From Crocinitomicaceae bacterium (GTDB taxonomy: Bacteria; Bacteroidota; Bacteroidia; Flavobacteriales_D; Crocinitomicaceae): a stretch of 57,646 nt of DNA. The stretch is from contig JANQWC010000028.1 of NCBI GenBank assembly GCA_030730025.1, positions 74,454 to 132,099 of the forward strand. The letters run 5' to 3'. This document shows positions 11,651-17,626 of the stretch, piece by piece (position 1 is the stretch's first letter; each line of letters opens with the position of its first letter). Made by a program: the position numbers and the translations under genes. The notes below the pieces were generated by a model. That model was not told the origin of the DNA, searched no databases, and saw nothing but the letters and a program-made list of their open reading frames with translations.

Positions 11651-12214
11651 TTAGTGTTGGATGTTGAGGCCGTATTTAGCGAGTAATCCGGGTAATTGGG
11701 CGTGTTGCAGCGTGGCCTCTTTCATGGAATTGAGTTCTGGATCGATTTGTAGATTTTGAACCCCGACAAAACGCGCTTTTCTGAGGTCACTTCTTTCAAA
11801 ATGTGCGCTCAGTAAATGAGAATTTTCAAAAGAGACACCCATGGCCTTGGCTTCGGTGAATTCTACGCCCTCTAAATCGCAGTTTAAAAACGAGCAGTTT
11901 TGCAGGTTCATTTGGTAAAAACTCGCGTGTTTCAAAAGGCAATTGCTAAACGCACAGGCAAAACCAAAAGAATTGGCGTATTCAAAATGCAGCCCTAATA
12001 ATTTGCAATTGTGAAAGGCAACCCCATTCAGCACGGTGTCTACCAAACTACAGTTGGATAAATTGCATTCTTCAAAGGTGCAATCTAAAAACTTGGATTG
12101 AGCGACCTTGACAGCCGTAAAATCTAGACCTATAAATCGACAGGCTTCGTAACTAGATTTTTCCTGGAAATCTTCAATCGTTGTGAATTCAATATCGTAA
12201 AAATCTTGTCTCAT
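11651..12214 (-). CDS. Pentapeptide repeat protein
   Basis: This 187-residue protein consists mostly of pentapeptide repeats of the A(D/N)LXX type with Phe/Leu and Cys in the central positions: examples are FLDCTFEECNLSNCSLVDT and FLNCDLEGVEFTEAKAMGV. Such proteins fold into a square right-handed beta-helix; some (MfpA, Qnr) mimic DNA and protect gyrase, but most have no known role. There is no signal peptide or membrane segment. It overlaps the upstream saccharopine-dehydrogenase-like gene by ATGA (12211-12214), so it is translated from the same message. Confidence 0.88.
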   Translation of the reverse strand: MRQDFYDIEFTTIEDFQEKSSYEACRFIGLDFTAVKVAQSKFLDCTFEECNLSNCSLVDTVLNGVAFHNCKLLGLHFEYANSFGFACAFSNCLLKHASFYQMNLQNCSFLNCDLEGVEFTEAKAMGVSFENSHLLSAHFERSDLRKARFVGVQNLQIDPELNSMKEATLQHAQLPGLLAKYGLNIQH

Positions 12215-13431
12215 TCGAGGCCTGCAAGATAAGGTTTGAGGTAAGTAAATGGTTCGTTGAGTTCGCCAGCGAGCGTTGTTTGCGTACCGCGGTAAATGAT
12301 TTGATCAGGGTCGGGGCCAAGCAAGACCGGAAACACCGCTTTGAGCAATTCAGAACCGAAATCTTCGGCGGCATCTTTGGAGAGTTCGCACGGCAAGTTA
12401 TCGACTGCCATCACGGCAATAGCGCCTGCTTGTAGCATATCGACTTCTTGTCCTGTTCGTGGGTCGTAGCCGTACATAGATGCGCCAATTTTACTCGGGC
12501 GAATGGTACAGGCAATTGGGCCCGCGATGTCGCAAGAAACGTCTGCAACCACTTGCATTTGACTCGCAGGGTCTTGGAGCATTTGTCGGGTCAGGATAAA
12601 CGGTGACTTCGAAGACCAAAAATGGCAAGGAATGTACACATTGCTTTTTTGCGCAAAAGCCCCAAAGTTGCTTTGGTACAATTCGGGTTGGGTGTAAAAC
12701 TCGCTTTTGTCAAAACCAGCATCTGACTTTCTGCAGAAGTATTGGTGGGTATCGAGGTGTGTAAATACGGCTTCGTTGTGTTGTTCTTGAAGATAGGCGT
12801 CAGGGTCAACTTCTTTGATGGGTAGCAGCTTGACAATTTCTCTGGCGCCATTTCCGACGCGGCCAAAGCCCGTAAGTACCAATTTGAAGTCAGGTGGCAG
12901 CACCACTTTTTTCAGTTCAGCTTCTACTTCTTTACGGTCTAAGCACAAGTGCGCCGGCTTGATGCTGTAGGCACCCGTTTTGAGTCCGTAGGTCAAAAAG
13001 GCATTGTAGGCACCCACAACGCCCGCATACCGACCAAAACCAATGATGCGTTTGTTGCTGGCATCTTTGAGTACTTCGTAGTCGATCAGGCGGATCTTTT
13101 TATCGAGGAGTTCTTGCAGTAAGCCGCGGTTGTAAGGTTGCTTCTTGAAAGTATGTGAAAAGAAAAGGTAGGTTTTACCGGCAATGAGTTGTTCTTTTGG
13201 CACCTCTTTTACGCCCAATAAGATGTCGCAATGACTGAGGTCTTCTTGAACTGTGAGGCCAAGTTCGGCGTATTTTTCATCTGAAAAGCAGCGTATTGGC
13301 GAGGTTTGTACCGTGACTTGAACGTTTGGGTATTGCTTTTCTAATTGCTGGCATTGTGCGGGGCTAAGCGGCACCCTGAAATCTGGTGGGGTTTTGCCTT
13401 CGCGGATGATGCCGATGTGAATGATGGACAT
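12211..13431 (-). CDS. NAD(P)-dependent oxidoreductase, saccharopine/alanine dehydrogenase family (LYS1-like)
   Basis: The 406-residue protein resembles lysine-forming saccharopine dehydrogenase (LYS1) and the alanine dehydrogenase/transhydrogenase N-terminal fold. The start at 13431 (IIHIGIIREGKTPPDFRVPLSP) gives the family's RExK...RV.L.P opening. YLFFSHTFKKQPYNR contains the His/Lys/Gln active-site stretch of LYS1-type enzymes, and LVLTGFGRVGNGAREIV is the nucleotide-binding loop. The C-terminal part has SCDIAGPIACT. The true substrate is open: a fungal-type lysine route is unlikely since dapD is present nearby. It begins 32 bases after the KdsC-like gene and overlaps the pentapeptide gene, so it belongs to that operon. 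Confidence 0.8.
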   Translation of the reverse strand: MSIIHIGIIREGKTPPDFRVPLSPAQCQQLEKQYPNVQVTVQTSPIRCFSDEKYAELGLTVQEDLSHCDILLGVKEVPKEQLIAGKTYLFFSHTFKKQPYNRGLLQELLDKKIRLIDYEVLKDASNKRIIGFGRYAGVVGAYNAFLTYGLKTGAYSIKPAHLCLDRKEVEAELKKVVLPPDFKLVLTGFGRVGNGAREIVKLLPIKEVDPDAYLQEQHNEAVFTHLDTHQYFCRKSDAGFDKSEFYTQPELYQSNFGAFAQKSNVYIPCHFWSSKSPFILTRQMLQDPASQMQVVADVSCDIAGPIACTIRPSKIGASMYGYDPRTGQEVDMLQAGAIAVMAVDNLPCELSKDAAEDFGSELLKAVFPVLLGPDPDQIIYRGTQTTLAGELNEPFTYLKPYLAGLE

Positions 13432-13463
13432 TTGTGAGTTGAAGTTGATGGAAATATAAATCT

Positions 13464-14129
13464 TTAGCTCAGGTAGTTGTCTATGAACTCGCGCACGCAA
13501 GCAGCGCCTCCTTTGCGGCTCAAGACAATATCTGAAATGCTTTTGATAGCCGCTACAGCCGATGCAGGGCAAACAGCCAAGCCAACAGCTTTCATGATTT
13601 CGGTATCGTTGCGGTCGTCGCCGATGAAGGCCACTTCTCTAGGCGAGATGTTCATTTCTTTGCACCAGTTCTCTAAGATGCTCAGTTTGGGTTCGCGGCC
13701 TACGTAAACGCGTTCAATGCCTAAAAGTGCGGCGCGGTCTTGTACCATGTGTTCGGTAAAGCCCGAAGAAATGATGCCGAGCTCGAGTTTTTTGCTCTTG
13801 CTGAGTTCGAGTAGGGCCAGGCCGTCGTGGGTGTTGTAGCGCTTCATTTGATCGCCTTTTTCACTGACGTACATGCCGCCGTCGGTCAGGACGCCATCGA
13901 CGTCGAGGATCAGCATTTTGAGGCCTTTGATTTTTTTATCGAGGCTTGCTTGAGAAAATAAAGGCTTGAACAACAAAGCCTGAAGGTCGATTTCGTATTC
14001 TTCGCAAATGGCTTCGAGGTCGTAGATGGAAAGTTCAAAGACGTTGTCTGCATCGAGATCGGCTAAGAAATCGTCAAATTCGATGCCGTTGGTCTTGCAC
14101 AGACCTTTGATATTGAGTTCAAGTAACAT
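13464..14129 (-). CDS. KdsC-like HAD phosphatase with an extra N-terminal domain
   Basis: The C-terminal part (about residues 66-221) is a KdsC-type C0 HAD phosphatase: Asp76 and Asp78 in ILDVDGVLTDGG are the nucleophile and acid/base, IISSGF holds motif II Ser, and GDDRNDTEIM is the metal-binding motif. KdsC removes the phosphate of 3-deoxy-D-manno-octulosonate 8-phosphate in LPS KDO synthesis. Unlike the usual enzymes of about 170-190 residues this one has about 65 extra N-terminal residues that are acidic and helical, with spacing that recalls a degenerate Cro/C1-type helix-turn-helix (GLCKTNGIEFDDFLAD ... LEAICEEYEIDLQALL). It follows DAHP synthase after 2 bases. Its substrate could be KDO8P or another phosphorylated 3-deoxy-ulosonate. 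Confidence 0.82.
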   Translation of the reverse strand: MLLELNIKGLCKTNGIEFDDFLADLDADNVFELSIYDLEAICEEYEIDLQALLFKPLFSQASLDKKIKGLKMLILDVDGVLTDGGMYVSEKGDQMKRYNTHDGLALLELSKSKKLELGIISSGFTEHMVQDRAALLGIERVYVGREPKLSILENWCKEMNISPREVAFIGDDRNDTEIMKAVGLAVCPASAVAAIKSISDIVLSRKGGAACVREFIDNYLS

Positions 14130-14131
14130 AA

Positions 14132-15121
14132 TTAAATAATTTGATAACCAACGCTTTGCGCTACTTTTTGAATGTCGGAGTGGAGTTTTCTGAATTCGTC
14201 GTAGTTGAGCTGCTGGGAGGCATCTGATTTGGCAACCTTAGGGTTCGGGTGCGCCTCGATGAGCAAGCCGTCTATGCCCATGGCCACGCAGGCGCGCGCT
14301 AAAGGATTGACACCGTAGGCGTAGCCCATGGCGTGAGATGGATCGAGTATAATTGGCAAGTTGGTGTGTTCTTGCAACCAGGCTACGCCACACAAATCGA
14401 GTGTAAAGCGGGTGCCTGTTTCAAAGGTGCGGATGCCGCGCTCGCAGAGTACAACATTTTCGTTGCCGCCTGAAAGCACAAACTCGGCTGCTTGTACAAA
14501 TTCTTGAAGGGTTGTGCCAAAACCGCGCTTGATGAGCACTGGTTTCTTGATTTTGGAACAGGCGCGCAAAATGCCTTGGTCGTACATGGCTTTGGCGCCA
14601 ACCTGAATGATGTCGGTGTGTTCGATGATTTCATCGATGTGGGTGGCATCGCGTGCTTCTGTGATCACGTTGAGGCCGTAGTCTTGGCGCATTTTGGCCA
14701 AAAGTTGCAAGCCTTCAAGGCCCATCCCTTGAAAAGAGTAGGGGCTTGTGCGCGGTTTGTAGGCGCCGCCTCTAAGCGTGGTGAGGCCCATGCTCACGAG
14801 TAACTCAGCCGAACCGCGGAGCTGCTCTTCTGATTCGACAGAACAAGGCCCGCCGATTAAGATGGTGTTGTTGGTCTGGCCACCAATGGTGACATTTCCG
14901 AATTGAACTTCGCGTTTTTGGTCCTGGAACTTGCGCGAGGCCAGCTGCATGTCGTTGGCAAAGACCCAATGGTTTTGGCTGTGGTCTTGCAGCGCTGTTG
15001 GAACTTCTTTGACGCCACTACCGGTGATGAGGTAGTCTTTTCCTAAATATTGGATGTGAAAAGCGTGGTGTGCGGCAGCGAGTGCAGCTGCGTTGGTGTT
15101 GTTTTTGAGTTCGATGATCAT
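14132..15121 (-). CDS. aroF: 3-deoxy-7-phosphoheptulonate (DAHP) synthase, type I-beta
   Basis: This 329-residue protein condenses phosphoenolpyruvate with erythrose 4-phosphate, the first step of the shikimate pathway. [11 protein letters not shown] and [17 protein letters not shown] are diagnostic for DAHP synthases of the AroAbeta type rather than KDO8P synthases. [11 protein letters not shown] and [12 protein letters not shown] hold further active-site and metal-binding residues. The first about 85 residues correspond to the small ferredoxin-like N-domain found in Thermotoga-type enzymes, which serves feedback control; no chorismate mutase domain is fused. It overlaps the RPE-CBS gene by ATGA and is followed after 2 bases by the KdsC-like phosphatase, a very tight coupling for a housekeeping aromatic enzyme. 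Confidence 0.92.
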
Positions 15122-16131
15122 ATTTCTGCTTTGATCAGGTTGGAGAATTGAACGATGCCTTTGAGTTGTTTGGCAGCGTCGATGACAGGTAAGTAAAGCA
15201 CCGCAAAGGGGCTGTTTTTGATGAGTTGCAAGAGTTCAACAACGCTTGCATCTTCATGGATGCAAATCGGTTGGTGGTTGATCATGCTATTTGGGTCGAT
15301 TAAGTTGAGGTCTGAACCGTTATTGAGGTTCTTCAGTAGGGCTTTTCTGATGTCGGCACTCGATACCAAACCGATGAAGGCATTGTGAGCATCTACAGCC
15401 ATAGCGACACCCATTTGGCCCTCTTCTACAGTTTGTAGAACATTTTTTAAATCCAAATTTTCAATGCTGAACTTCGGGGTTTCGTGCAAGGGCGTCATGA
15501 AATCGGCCACCTTGAACGCGGAGCCAATGCTGCGCTTGGTGAGGTTCATGAGCGCATTGCCTACGCTGGCTTCCTTGAAAAGATAAGAGCCCGAAACGGC
15601 TGTGCTGACGCCCATTTGGCGCAAAATAAACGAAACCTCAGGGTTGACGCCGCCGTCGACATGAATAGATTTATTGGGGTAGCGCTTTCTGAAAGAGCGG
15701 ATTTTGTCAAAATTGAGTCGGTCAAAAACACCGCCAGACTGCCCTGGAATAGTGGCCATGATCAGGATGAAATCGAAGTGCTCGTAGGGTTCAAAAGCTG
15801 AAATTGGCGTAGGGGTAATAACGGCTAGGCCTTTTTTACCGGTAATGGCTGCAGGGATTTGTAGCTCGGTTTTTAAATCTTCTACTTGAAAAGTGAGGTA
15901 CTCAACTGGGTTTTCGAGTAAATAAGGATAGAATTTGGCAGGATCTGCCGTAATGATGTGTAAATCGAGTGGGAGCGTGCACCATTCGCGGATTTTTTTG
16001 ATGTCGTCAAAAACGCGGAGGTCGTCGTTGCAGTCGATGTGGAGGAGGTCTACTTGATGGGCTACGAGATCAGCAATAACGGCTTGCAAAGGGCGCGCGG
16101 CGTCTGAATAAATGGATGCTGAAATTTTCAT
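15118..16131 (-). CDS. Ribulose-phosphate 3-epimerase-like domain fused to a KdsD-like CBS pair
   Basis: This 337-residue protein joins two modules. Residues 1-205 are a ribulose-phosphate 3-epimerase (RPE) TIM barrel in which all four metal ligands are kept: His31 and Asp33 in LLHIDCND, His58 in LDLHII, and Asp159 in IHVDGGVN. The phosphate/substrate loops differ from true RPE: MATIPGQSGG replaces MSVNPGFGGQ and the MD-N-VPN loop is absent. Residues 207-337 are two CBS motifs starting FMTPLHETP, with GLVSSADIRKALL, resembling the CBS pair of arabinose-5-phosphate isomerase KdsD (GIFTDGDLRR). I chose the ATG at 16131; a GTG at 16140 is possible. It overlaps DAHP synthase by ATGA. The start is 20 bases from the SRP RNA end. 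Confidence 0.85.
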   Translation of the reverse strand: MKISASIYSDAARPLQAVIADLVAHQVDLLHIDCNDDLRVFDDIKKIREWCTLPLDLHIITADPAKFYPYLLENPVEYLTFQVEDLKTELQIPAAITGKKGLAVITPTPISAFEPYEHFDFILIMATIPGQSGGVFDRLNFDKIRSFRKRYPNKSIHVDGGVNPEVSFILRQMGVSTAVSGSYLFKEASVGNALMNLTKRSIGSAFKVADFMTPLHETPKFSIENLDLKNVLQTVEEGQMGVAMAVDAHNAFIGLVSSADIRKALLKNLNNGSDLNLIDPNSMINHQPICIHEDASVVELLQLIKNSPFAVLYLPVIDAAKQLKGIVQFSNLIKAEI

Positions 16132-16140
16132 GGTAGACAC

Positions 16141-16160
16141 AAAAAAAGATGGGGTAAGCT
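16141..16160 (-). terminator. Terminator of SRP RNA, just before the RPE-CBS gene
   Basis: The closing stem of the SRP RNA (GCTTACCCC strand) is followed on the minus strand by ATC and seven T. It would act as an intrinsic terminator, but the RPE-CBS gene starts only 10-20 bases later without its own visible promoter, so partial read-through is likely. Confidence 0.5.
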
Positions 16161-16248
16161 ACTTTTATCGCACCGCTACAACCTCTTACCTTTGCTACAT
16201 TCCTGTCCTGGAGGATTCAGAGGGAGCTGGTCGTAAAAGACTTACCCC
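16151..16248 (-). ncRNA. ffs: Bacterial small signal recognition particle RNA (4.5S-type)
   Basis: The transcript folds end to end: GGGGTAAG at its 5' end pairs with CTTACCCC at its 3' end. The tip is the SRP domain IV helix: CCAGG-ACA-GGAA-TGT-AGCA, i.e. a GGAA tetraloop closed by 3 pairs and the asymmetric internal loop with CAGG on the 5' side and AGCA on the 3' side, which is the Ffh M-domain binding site. A run of seven T follows the closing stem (16148-16142) and acts as terminator. A matching promoter lies directly upstream. The length of about 98 nt agrees with 4.5S-class RNAs. The exact ends are inferred from the pairing and from the promoter. Confidence 0.88.
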
Positions 16249-16251
16249 ATG

Positions 16252-16283
16252 CAAAAATACGAAATTCTTGTGATTCTATGCAA
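16252..16283 (-). promoter_or_regulatory. SRP RNA promoter (TTG-N21-TATTTTTG)
   Basis: On the minus strand TTG at 16283-16281 is followed after 21 bases by TATTTTTG at 16259-16252, an exact TAnnTTTG box. The predicted start G at 16248 is 4 bases past the box. The -33 element overlaps the last codons of the upstream acidic protein gene. Confidence 0.7.
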
Positions 16284-16853: not shown

Positions 16854-17084
16854 ATGAAAAAGATACTGCATTCCGAAAAATACTTCACCGCAATTGGTTA
16901 CCTCCTTGGTGGCATTCTGGGGTATGTTTATTTTATCCAGTTTCCTTGTACGACAGGTTGTGCGTTGAGAAGTACGCCTTATGCAACAATTTTACTGGGT
17001 TTATTGTTAGGTGGTACCGTTTTTCAATTCATTTTCGAAATTATCAACCCTAAAAATAAAAAAGATGTCAAAAACAATCATTGA
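16854..17084 (+). CDS. DUF6132-like small membrane protein
   Basis: The 76-residue protein has two hydrophobic segments (about residues 13-30 and 43-63) separated by FPCTTGCALRSTPYAT, which carries a Cys pair CTTGC. This layout fits the small DUF6132 family of Bacteroidota. The C-terminal tail is short and basic. The last 20 bases overlap the start of the first rhodanese gene, implying coupled translation. With two rhodaneses downstream, a role in sulfur (persulfide/thiosulfate) handling at the membrane is plausible; the Cys pair could be the redox-active element. That role is inference. Confidence 0.75.
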   Translation: MKKILHSEKYFTAIGYLLGGILGYVYFIQFPCTTGCALRSTPYATILLGLLLGGTVFQFIFEIINPKNKKDVKNNH

Positions 17085-17319
17085 TGTGCGCACGCACGCT
17101 GAGTTTGCTGGTGGCCATGTCGCTGGTTCAATCAACATTCCACTCCAAGAAATTGTGTCTCATGTAGAGCAAATCAAGGCAATGGAGCAACCAATTATCT
17201 TCTGTTGTGCTTCGGGTAACCGCTCAGGGCAAGCCACACATTATTTTCAATCTATTGGTGTAGATTGCGAAAACGGCGGTTCTTGGTTAGATGTGAATTA
17301 CCTGGTTGCTCAAAATTAA
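17065..17319 (+). CDS. Single-domain rhodanese-like protein (first of a tandem pair)
   Basis: The start at 17065 gives an 84-residue cytosolic rhodanese domain: IIDVRTHAEFAGGHVAGSINIPL at the front (split), then the active-site loop CCASGNRSGQA, in which the second Cys is the persulfide carrier, and the C-terminal NGGSW block. Single-domain rhodaneses of this size (GlpE/PspE-like) move sulfane sulfur between small thiols and proteins. It overlaps the DUF6132 gene by 20 bases and is followed after 4 bases by a second rhodanese, so the three are one operon. Confidence 0.88.
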   Translation: MSKTIIDVRTHAEFAGGHVAGSINIPLQEIVSHVEQIKAMEQPIIFCCASGNRSGQATHYFQSIGVDCENGGSWLDVNYLVAQN

Positions 17320-17323
17320 GGTC

Positions 17324-17626
17324 ATGTCCTTACTTAAAAAATTATTTGGAGGCAGCAGCGTGAATTATGCTGAACTCGTGAAGCAAGGCGCCATGATCAT
17401 CGATGTGCGCAGCCCTACAGAATTCAAAGGTGGTCACATCAAAGGAGCAGTCAATATACCTTTGCAGTCTTTGCAAGCAAGTATGTCAAAGGTCCCAAAG
17501 AACAAAACCATCATTACTTGCTGTGCGTCTGGTATGCGCAGCGGTAGTGCCAAAAGCTTGCTCAAGGCAGCTGGCTACGACGTGCACAACGGCGGCGGCT
17601 GGATGAGCCTCAAAGGCAAAATCTAA
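17324..17626 (+). CDS. Single-domain rhodanese-like protein (second of a tandem pair)
   Basis: This 100-residue rhodanese starts with a basic/hydrophobic lead (SLLKKLFGGSSVNYAELV) and then the domain: IIDVRSPTEFKGGHIKGAVNIPL (split), the active loop CCASGMRSGSA and NGGGWMSL at the end. The similarity to its neighbour shows that they arose by duplication. The second copy carries an extra N-terminal helix of about 20 residues that might touch the membrane or a partner. A strong bidirectional terminator follows. Confidence 0.88.
   Translation: MSLLKKLFGGSSVNYAELVKQGAMIIDVRSPTEFKGGHIKGAVNIPLQSLQASMSKVPKNKTIITCCASGMRSGSAKSLLKAAGYDVHNGGGWMSLKGKI

Follow-up and report, generated by a model that had tools for sequence, protein, structure and literature searches.

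The subject of this analysis is a three-gene operon on the reverse strand of a 57,646-nucleotide stretch of DNA from a Crocinitomicaceae bacterium (assembly GCA_030730025.1, contig JANQWC010000028.1, positions 74,454 to 132,099; hereafter the window). The operon encodes: a ribulose-phosphate 3-epimerase (RPE)-type barrel fused to a CBS region (RPE-CBS); a synthase related to 3-deoxy-D-arabino-heptulosonate-7-phosphate (DAHP) synthase; and a KdsC-like phosphatase. Taken together, the data suggest that the trio is probably the source of the 3-deoxy-ulosonate for the cytidine monophosphate (CMP)-Kdo branch (Kdo, 3-deoxy-D-manno-octulosonate), where it replaces KdsD and KdsA. The case for a product of seven carbons is evenly balanced. 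Almost all Gram-negative bacteria have Kdo in their lipid A core, and the enzymes that make it are under investigation as drug targets. If the proposal is correct, the Kdo pathway has here been put together anew without KdsD or KdsA, its parts being a pentose-phosphate epimerase and a synthase of the aromatic pathway.

Distribution of the Kdo genes

The replacement of KdsD and KdsA is suggested by the gene content of 30 genomes: 19 of the same clade (labelled as the same genus, the window's genome included) and 11 others of the order. Statements on KdsA absence cover this panel; an order-wide search of 399 genomes supplied best matches. In the clade, KdsA was found in 0 of 19 genomes and SIS-domain KdsD in 0 of 19, the best match to the SIS part reaching 22.7 bits. 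These genomes nevertheless keep the later steps, with KdsB above the model cut-off in 16 and KdtA in 17. The trio-type synthase is present in 17 and RPE-CBS in 16; the three RPE-CBS misses are G400 and G406, which have no PF00793 match, and G401, whose contig starts inside the operon. Among the 11 other genomes, RPE-CBS was not found and one has the trio-type synthase; KdsA is present in 10, SIS KdsD in 9, and KdsB and KdtA in all 11. Five of these nine KdsD proteins exceed the kpsF cut-off, and four, at 168-174 bits, contain the SIS domain only. Loci containing E. coli kdsB, kdsD and kdsC (L351, L352) served as references.

The window's own genome (81% complete, 28 contigs) yielded no SIS-type KdsD. 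Because neither KdsA nor KdsD was found in any of the 19 clade genomes, six of them at 99% completeness, assembly gaps are a poor explanation. The preliminary description of this DNA had remarked on a likeness to the Kdo pathway; the clade in which KdsB and KdtA but no KdsD or KdsA were found, and two relatives with a kdsD-kdsA-synthase arrangement, both reinforce it. It had also envisaged a parallel route to a dephosphorylated 3-deoxy-heptulosonate. The motifs of the synthase agree with that type of product; the route, however, seems to be a replacement and not a parallel one.

Conservation of the operon

The three genes, the ATGA overlap between the first two and the gap of 2 bases between the second and third were all re-found as first described. 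A scan of named genome contigs for RPE-CBS, of which the best 80 of 289 stretches were kept, was combined with 17 loci from other genera of the family; less 3 contigs fetched twice, this gives 94 distinct loci. The synthase directly follows RPE-CBS in 93 of the 94, the last contig ending 43 bases past RPE-CBS, and the two genes share the ATGA overlap in 86 of these 93. The KdsC-like gene comes next in 89 of 93, and the other four contigs end within 300 bases. The adjacency that the preliminary description had proposed to look for was found in these loci, and the trio is real and conserved, far beyond chance.

The titles of the RPE-CBS contigs are mostly Crocinitomicaceae or Flavobacteriales; some others (Sphingomonadales, Chitinophaga, Chryseobacterium) are taken to be misnamed assemblies. 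The trio is also carried by assemblies under the names Fluviicola and Lishizhenia. Of 395 genomes sampled evenly across the phylum, two contain full-length RPE-CBS, namely the window's genome and another from its genus; three further matches (58-62 bits) are confined to the barrel. RPE-CBS was not matched in plasmid records, whose synthase matches all fell below 60% identity. Literature searches, at the level of titles and abstract openings, found no publication on the trio. G547, a genome from the family, has a synthase and KdsC-like pair (L336:3940-5647) with a gene on the opposite strand at the expected place of RPE-CBS.

The synthase and the length of the product

The second gene matches DAHP_synth_1 (PF00793; 226.6 bits) and scores above the DAHP synthase model TIGR01361 (315.6 bits, cut-off 267.75), in agreement with its first assignment as a DAHP synthase. 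It lies below the KdsA equivalogs TIGR01362 (119.2 bits, cut-off 314) and PRK05198 (123 bits, cut-off 242). Distinct reading frames of at least 250 residues were compared, which left out a KdsA fragment of G421: 102 trio-type rows (97 distinct cores), 19 canonical, 12 KdsA and 25 fusions. Some family members have three or four PF00793 matches, mostly outside the analysis.

Two determinants distinguish KdsA, namely the KANRS motif and an extended loop that fit the longer arabinose-5-phosphate. The trio-type synthase has neither. KPRTS is found in 102 of 102 trio-type rows, as against KxNR[ST]x in 12 of 12 KdsA rows. The loop after the DPSH motif has 22 residues in 102 of 102, as in DAHP synthases, versus 33-34 in all 12 KdsA rows; the combination of a KANRS-type motif and a long loop occurs in 0 of 102. 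Because the synthase carries KPRTS and the short loop, and not the KdsA features, seven carbons are favoured over eight.

The chief rival to a seven-carbon product is eight-carbon Kdo itself. Here, RPE-CBS would supply arabinose-5-phosphate, as a ribose-5-phosphate 2-epimerase or ribulose-5-phosphate isomerase, to a synthase recruited as Kdo-8-phosphate synthase. This was the initial idea, and it was demoted because all 102 synthases lack the motif and loop of the 12 KdsA rows. The coexistence of the synthase with KdsA in G445, G472 and G420 also counts against it. In its favour, KdtA and an ordinary KdsB were found where KdsD and KdsA were not, and the Pyrococcus furiosus DAHP synthase, one of this kind, reportedly uses arabinose-5-phosphate. 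On balance, we regard ordinary Kdo by this route as unlikely.

The trio-type synthase resembles the type I-beta DAHP synthases of Thermotoga and Pyrococcus in KPRTS, the short loop, family score and an N-terminal extension of about 60 residues. It departs from them in the pocket. The canonical GARNxQNF is replaced by GAK[AS]MYD in 101 of 102 rows and by GTKAMYN in one, and the methionine of canonical TEVM, present in the 19 canonical rows, becomes Arg157. The pocket-loop residues Arg157, Lys177, Ala178, Tyr180 and Asp181 thus separate the trio type from all 19 canonical rows, and KdsA differs again. In a tree of 25 of the 102 trio-type and 10 of the 25 fusion rows, whose log warns of long branches, the trio-type proteins group in a single clade (93/99, on a branch that is not starred), at the base of which stand members from two further families of the order.

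Relatives sharing 53-59% identity with it are found, going by record names, in Campylobacter, Cytophagales and Gammaproteobacteria. The motif G[AT]K[AS]MY is present in all 120 best matches of the synthase search, query included (P0241-P0360), and perhaps this subfamily is not a shikimate enzyme everywhere. E. coli genomes gave no DNA match to the synthase. If the proposal holds, it suggests a function for widespread synthases now annotated as DAHP synthase. The records from these three groups carry that annotation.

The RPE-CBS protein

The first gene matches Ribul_P_3_epim (76 bits) and CBS (37.1 bits, for a single scored CBS stretch), and RPE is the best match of its barrel in a structural comparison. 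Like RPE, it has the fold, the metal ligands and the DGG and GS segments. None of the ligands His31, Asp33, His58 and Asp159 varies among 21 members of the family, and they align with those of canonical rpe; the original account of a barrel with its ligands kept and its substrate loops altered is upheld. The alterations were read from 85 RPE-CBS loci and from those 10 of the 24 loci of canonical rpe that fitted the search pattern. RPE-CBS has Tyr8, Asn35, Ile60 and PGQSGG where canonical rpe has Leu, Met, Met and PGFGGQ, and the stretch corresponding to FVPNxxFG is 6 residues shorter. A methionine cap is a known feature of RPE. Unlike RPE, the protein lies far below the rpe equivalog TIGR01163 (68.7 bits, cut-off 212.6), carries an added CBS region and is accompanied by a normal rpe.

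A Pfam search found no SIS domain in RPE-CBS, the RPE fold standing instead. The CBS part had been described as a pair like that of KdsD. This likeness was set aside as evidence, not being specific: the kpsF model gives the RPE-CBS region 27 bits and the CBS part of the same genome's inosine monophosphate (IMP) dehydrogenase, a control frame recognised by eye, 47.1 bits. The CBS region is likely ligand-sensing. The proposed role of RPE-CBS is that of an aldose-phosphate 2-epimerase (or isomerase) that supplies the synthase, its substrate being predicted from sequence.

The KdsC-like phosphatase

The third gene was rightly called KdsC-like: it exceeds the KdsC subfamily model TIGR01670 (132.5 bits, cut-off 106.95) and shares 35% identity with E. 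coli KdsC over 167 positions, and it remains below the KdsC equivalog PRK09484 (121.7 bits, cut-off 208). Its N-terminus has about 60 extra residues that the preliminary description overlooked. The homologous extension of a relative (L270) scores just above the HTH_3 cut-off (23.1 bits, cut-off 23); a Pfam search found no HTH_3 match in the window copy. Since the L270 copy scores, the extension appears to be a degenerate Cro/C1-type helix-turn-helix.

Shikimate entry

The preliminary description had offered, as another possibility, a regulated branch linking pentose phosphate to the shikimate pathway. Shikimate entry as the main role of the trio was considered and rejected. A DAHP synthase fused to chorismate mutase is present in 16 of 19 clade genomes, and an aroA-like gene adjoins it in 15 of these 16, the window's genome included. 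There, the fused enzyme is a second PF00793 protein, and the adjoining aroA-like frame, cut by the end of the locus, scores 267.4 bits (cut-off 287.25). This context speaks against the trio-type synthase as the enzyme that serves shikimate in these genomes, and the trio is probably not the shikimate entry.

A related explanation makes RPE-CBS a regulated ribulose-phosphate epimerase and the synthase a second DAHP synthase, with an unrelated phosphatase. The scores of the synthase above the DAHP synthase cut-offs agree with this, as does RPE as the closest structure to the barrel. We nonetheless consider it improbable. A separate rpe is present in 14 of 19 clade genomes, the pocket residues of both enzymes are altered and fixed, and the fused DAHP synthase stands beside the aroA-like gene; the kds-operon (G445) and sugar-nucleotide (L353) contexts described below point the same way. 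The original description had allowed for a mere housekeeping operon should the genome hold no other rpe or kdsC; it holds a normal rpe and a second KdsC.

Gene contexts elsewhere

Outside the family, the trio-type synthase lies beside kds genes in two genomes. In G445, a SIS-only kdsD, kdsA, kdsB and, last, the synthase overlap in one operon, and G472 has the order kdsD-kdsA-synthase. In G420, the synthase is paired with a helix-turn-helix KdsC-like gene, and kdsD and kdsA lie elsewhere in the genome.

L353 is an IMG/VR contig, viral as catalogued. It carries, contiguously, RPE-CBS, the synthase and a PF02348 CMP-sugar transferase overlapping the synthase, followed by nucleotide-sugar genes. 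The alignment of its RPE-CBS with that of the window (30% identity, 118 bits) runs over 307 positions and takes in the barrel and the greater part of the CBS region. Its synthase has the motif GAKAMWDYG and 53% identity to P0276 over residues 71-332. The closest named relative of the transferase is pseudaminic acid cytidylyltransferase, at 45.5 bits and below the cut-off. Of 8 synthase relatives on viral contigs, two were read, L353 and L355, the latter with canonical GARN. Phage records gave 21 matches to the L353 RPE-CBS, none over 80% of its length. The L353 and kds-operon contexts therefore make a shikimate role unlikely and a CMP-ulosonate likely.

These contexts also bear on the idea of an additional surface sugar acid as the product of the trio. 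The precursor of Kdo would then come from unrecognised enzymes, or KdsA and KdsD would have been missed in drafts. The position of the L353 module among nucleoside diphosphate (NDP)-sugar genes would fit, as would a widespread synthase that stands beside KdsA in G445 and G472. The failure to find KdsA and KdsD in every clade genome at once, nearly complete ones included, would hardly fit gaps, nor would the idea agree with a gene order that is constant across the sampled genera, unlike that of variable polysaccharide clusters. This explanation appears distinctly unlikely.

A comparable arrangement occurs in G416 (L272): kdsA is followed by a fructose-6-phosphate-aldolase (FSA)-like barrel with a CBS pair, and then by a gene of weak likeness to KdsC (58.2 bits, cut-off 106.95). 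As in the trio, a non-SIS barrel with a CBS pair lies beside a phosphoenolpyruvate (PEP) synthase and a KdsC-like gene; unlike the trio, the barrel is of transaldolase/FSA type, the synthase is a true KdsA and the phosphatase is only weakly KdsC-like. A look-alike fusion was recognised by eye in G414, away from its kdsA. SIS KdsD was not found in G416 or G414, the two panel genomes with KdsA only, and the G416 fusion is a possible second replacement of KdsD. The two non-SIS fusions suggest that KdsD may have been replaced on two separate occasions by a barrel with a CBS pair. A KdsD-like CBS part was dropped as evidence for the aldolase fusion, which scores 55.7 bits against 59.1 bits for a 501-residue probable IMP dehydrogenase frame. 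Synthetic-pathway papers mention FSA alongside arabinose-5-phosphate and glycolaldehyde.

Proposed route

Every substrate and product in the following scheme is predicted from sequence and gene context. First, RPE-CBS would invert carbon 2 of erythrose-4-phosphate, yielding D-threose-4-phosphate; this step would be the RPE reaction with the distance from phosphate to reacting carbon unchanged. Next, the synthase would condense D-threose-4-phosphate with PEP to 3-deoxy-D-lyxo-hept-2-ulosonate-7-phosphate, from which the KdsC-like enzyme would remove the phosphate. KdsB would then form the CMP-sugar and KdtA transfer it onto lipid A. In its ring configuration the product would match Kdo, with a side chain one carbon shorter, and the CBS part may exert feedback control.

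The scheme would parallel the KdsD-KdsA-KdsC-KdsB pathway in its CBS-bearing sugar-phosphate enzyme, PEP condensation, KdsC-family phosphatase and CMP transfer by KdsB. It would differ in that its first enzyme has an RPE barrel and is not a SIS isomerase, and that its synthase, a DAHP synthase by type, lacks the motif and the loop of KdsA. As a whole, this seven-carbon route from RPE-CBS, synthase and KdsC-like phosphatase to KdsB and KdtA is our best explanation, though its probability falls a little short of even. Threose-4-phosphate as the intermediate is tentative and rather doubtful. Unlikely, but worth stating, is a family-wide swap of Kdo for 3-deoxy-D-lyxo-hept-2-ulosonate, made from D-threose-4-phosphate by a tetrose-phosphate 2-epimerase that derives from RPE and a condensing enzyme that derives from DAHP synthase, with the module carried by at least one virus. 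A D-lyxo heptulosonate product would give a route to a skeleton related to the plant Dha. We know of no described biosynthesis of this skeleton, to which the heptulosaric acid Dha of plant cell walls is related.

Several observations weigh against the replacement of KdsD and KdsA by a seven-carbon route. KdsB looks ordinary and compatible with Kdo itself: clade proteins keep 48 of the 56 positions common to E. coli KdsB and relatives, and a comparison of 15 of 16 clade with 11 of 12 other KdsB proteins found nothing specific hinting at a new sugar. The window's genome, at its 81% completeness, gave no KdsB match. A KdsC-family gene lies outside the trio in 18 of 19 clade genomes (one below the cut-off). 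The clade genomes are not independent, and one event may have removed KdsA and KdsD from them all. No RPE-CBS adjoins the synthase in G445 or G472; G420 has KdsD and KdsA, and a genome search found no RPE-CBS in it; and in G547, of the same family, the synthase and KdsC-like gene are paired but have no RPE-CBS next to them. The module in the viral catalogue is one contig, two more viral RPE-CBS scans having found L353 only. The trio-type synthase exceeds DAHP synthase cut-offs and is widespread, for example in Campylobacter and Gammaproteobacteria. Finally, neither the fused DAHP synthase nor the aroA-like frame reaches its model cut-offs.

Features and neighbouring genes

Table 1. Locations of the operon, its motifs and related features (window positions unless a locus is named).
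Feature	Location	Strand	Remarks
Gene 1, RPE-CBS	16131..15118	-	337 aa
RPE-type barrel, residues 1-200	15532..16131	-	metal ligands kept, substrate loops altered
CBS region, residues 201-337	15121..15531	-	domain matches
Gene 2, DAHP-synthase-like, trio type	15121..14132	-	329 aa
KPRTS motif, residues 122-126	14744..14758	-	four-carbon-aldose type
GAKAMYDQ motif, residues 175-182	14576..14599	-	diagnostic of trio-type synthase; canonical GARNxQNF
Short loop, His263 to Asp284	14270..14335	-	22 residues; 33-34 in KdsA
Gene 3, KdsC-like HAD phosphatase	14129..13464	-	221 aa
N-terminal extension of gene 3, apparent degenerate Cro/C1 helix-turn-helix	13950..14129	-	homology to L270:6079-6750
Small signal recognition particle (SRP) RNA gene	16148..16254	-	RF04183, 109.5 bits
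Sugar-nucleotide cluster, L353	6892-12344		RPE-CBS, synthase, CMP-sugar transferase, RraA-like, NDP-sugar dehydrogenase, epimerase, cytidylyltransferase
Aldolase-like barrel and CBS fusion, G416	L272:5715-6728		between kdsA and weakly KdsC-like gene
Aldolase-like barrel and CBS look-alike, G414	L274:4763-5773		by eye; away from its kdsA

The small SRP RNA gene lies 16 bases upstream of RPE-CBS, and it may share a promoter with the trio. Models of anti-phage systems gave no relevant match. Downstream of the trio, positions 12211-13464 encode a 417-residue dehydrogenase-like protein with an AlaDh_PNT_N domain, and a gene with this domain follows the trio in 71 of 80 contig loci, as it does in 9 of 17 loci from other genera. 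On the forward strand, two small rhodanese-like open reading frames, recognised by eye, lie side by side at 17011-17626.

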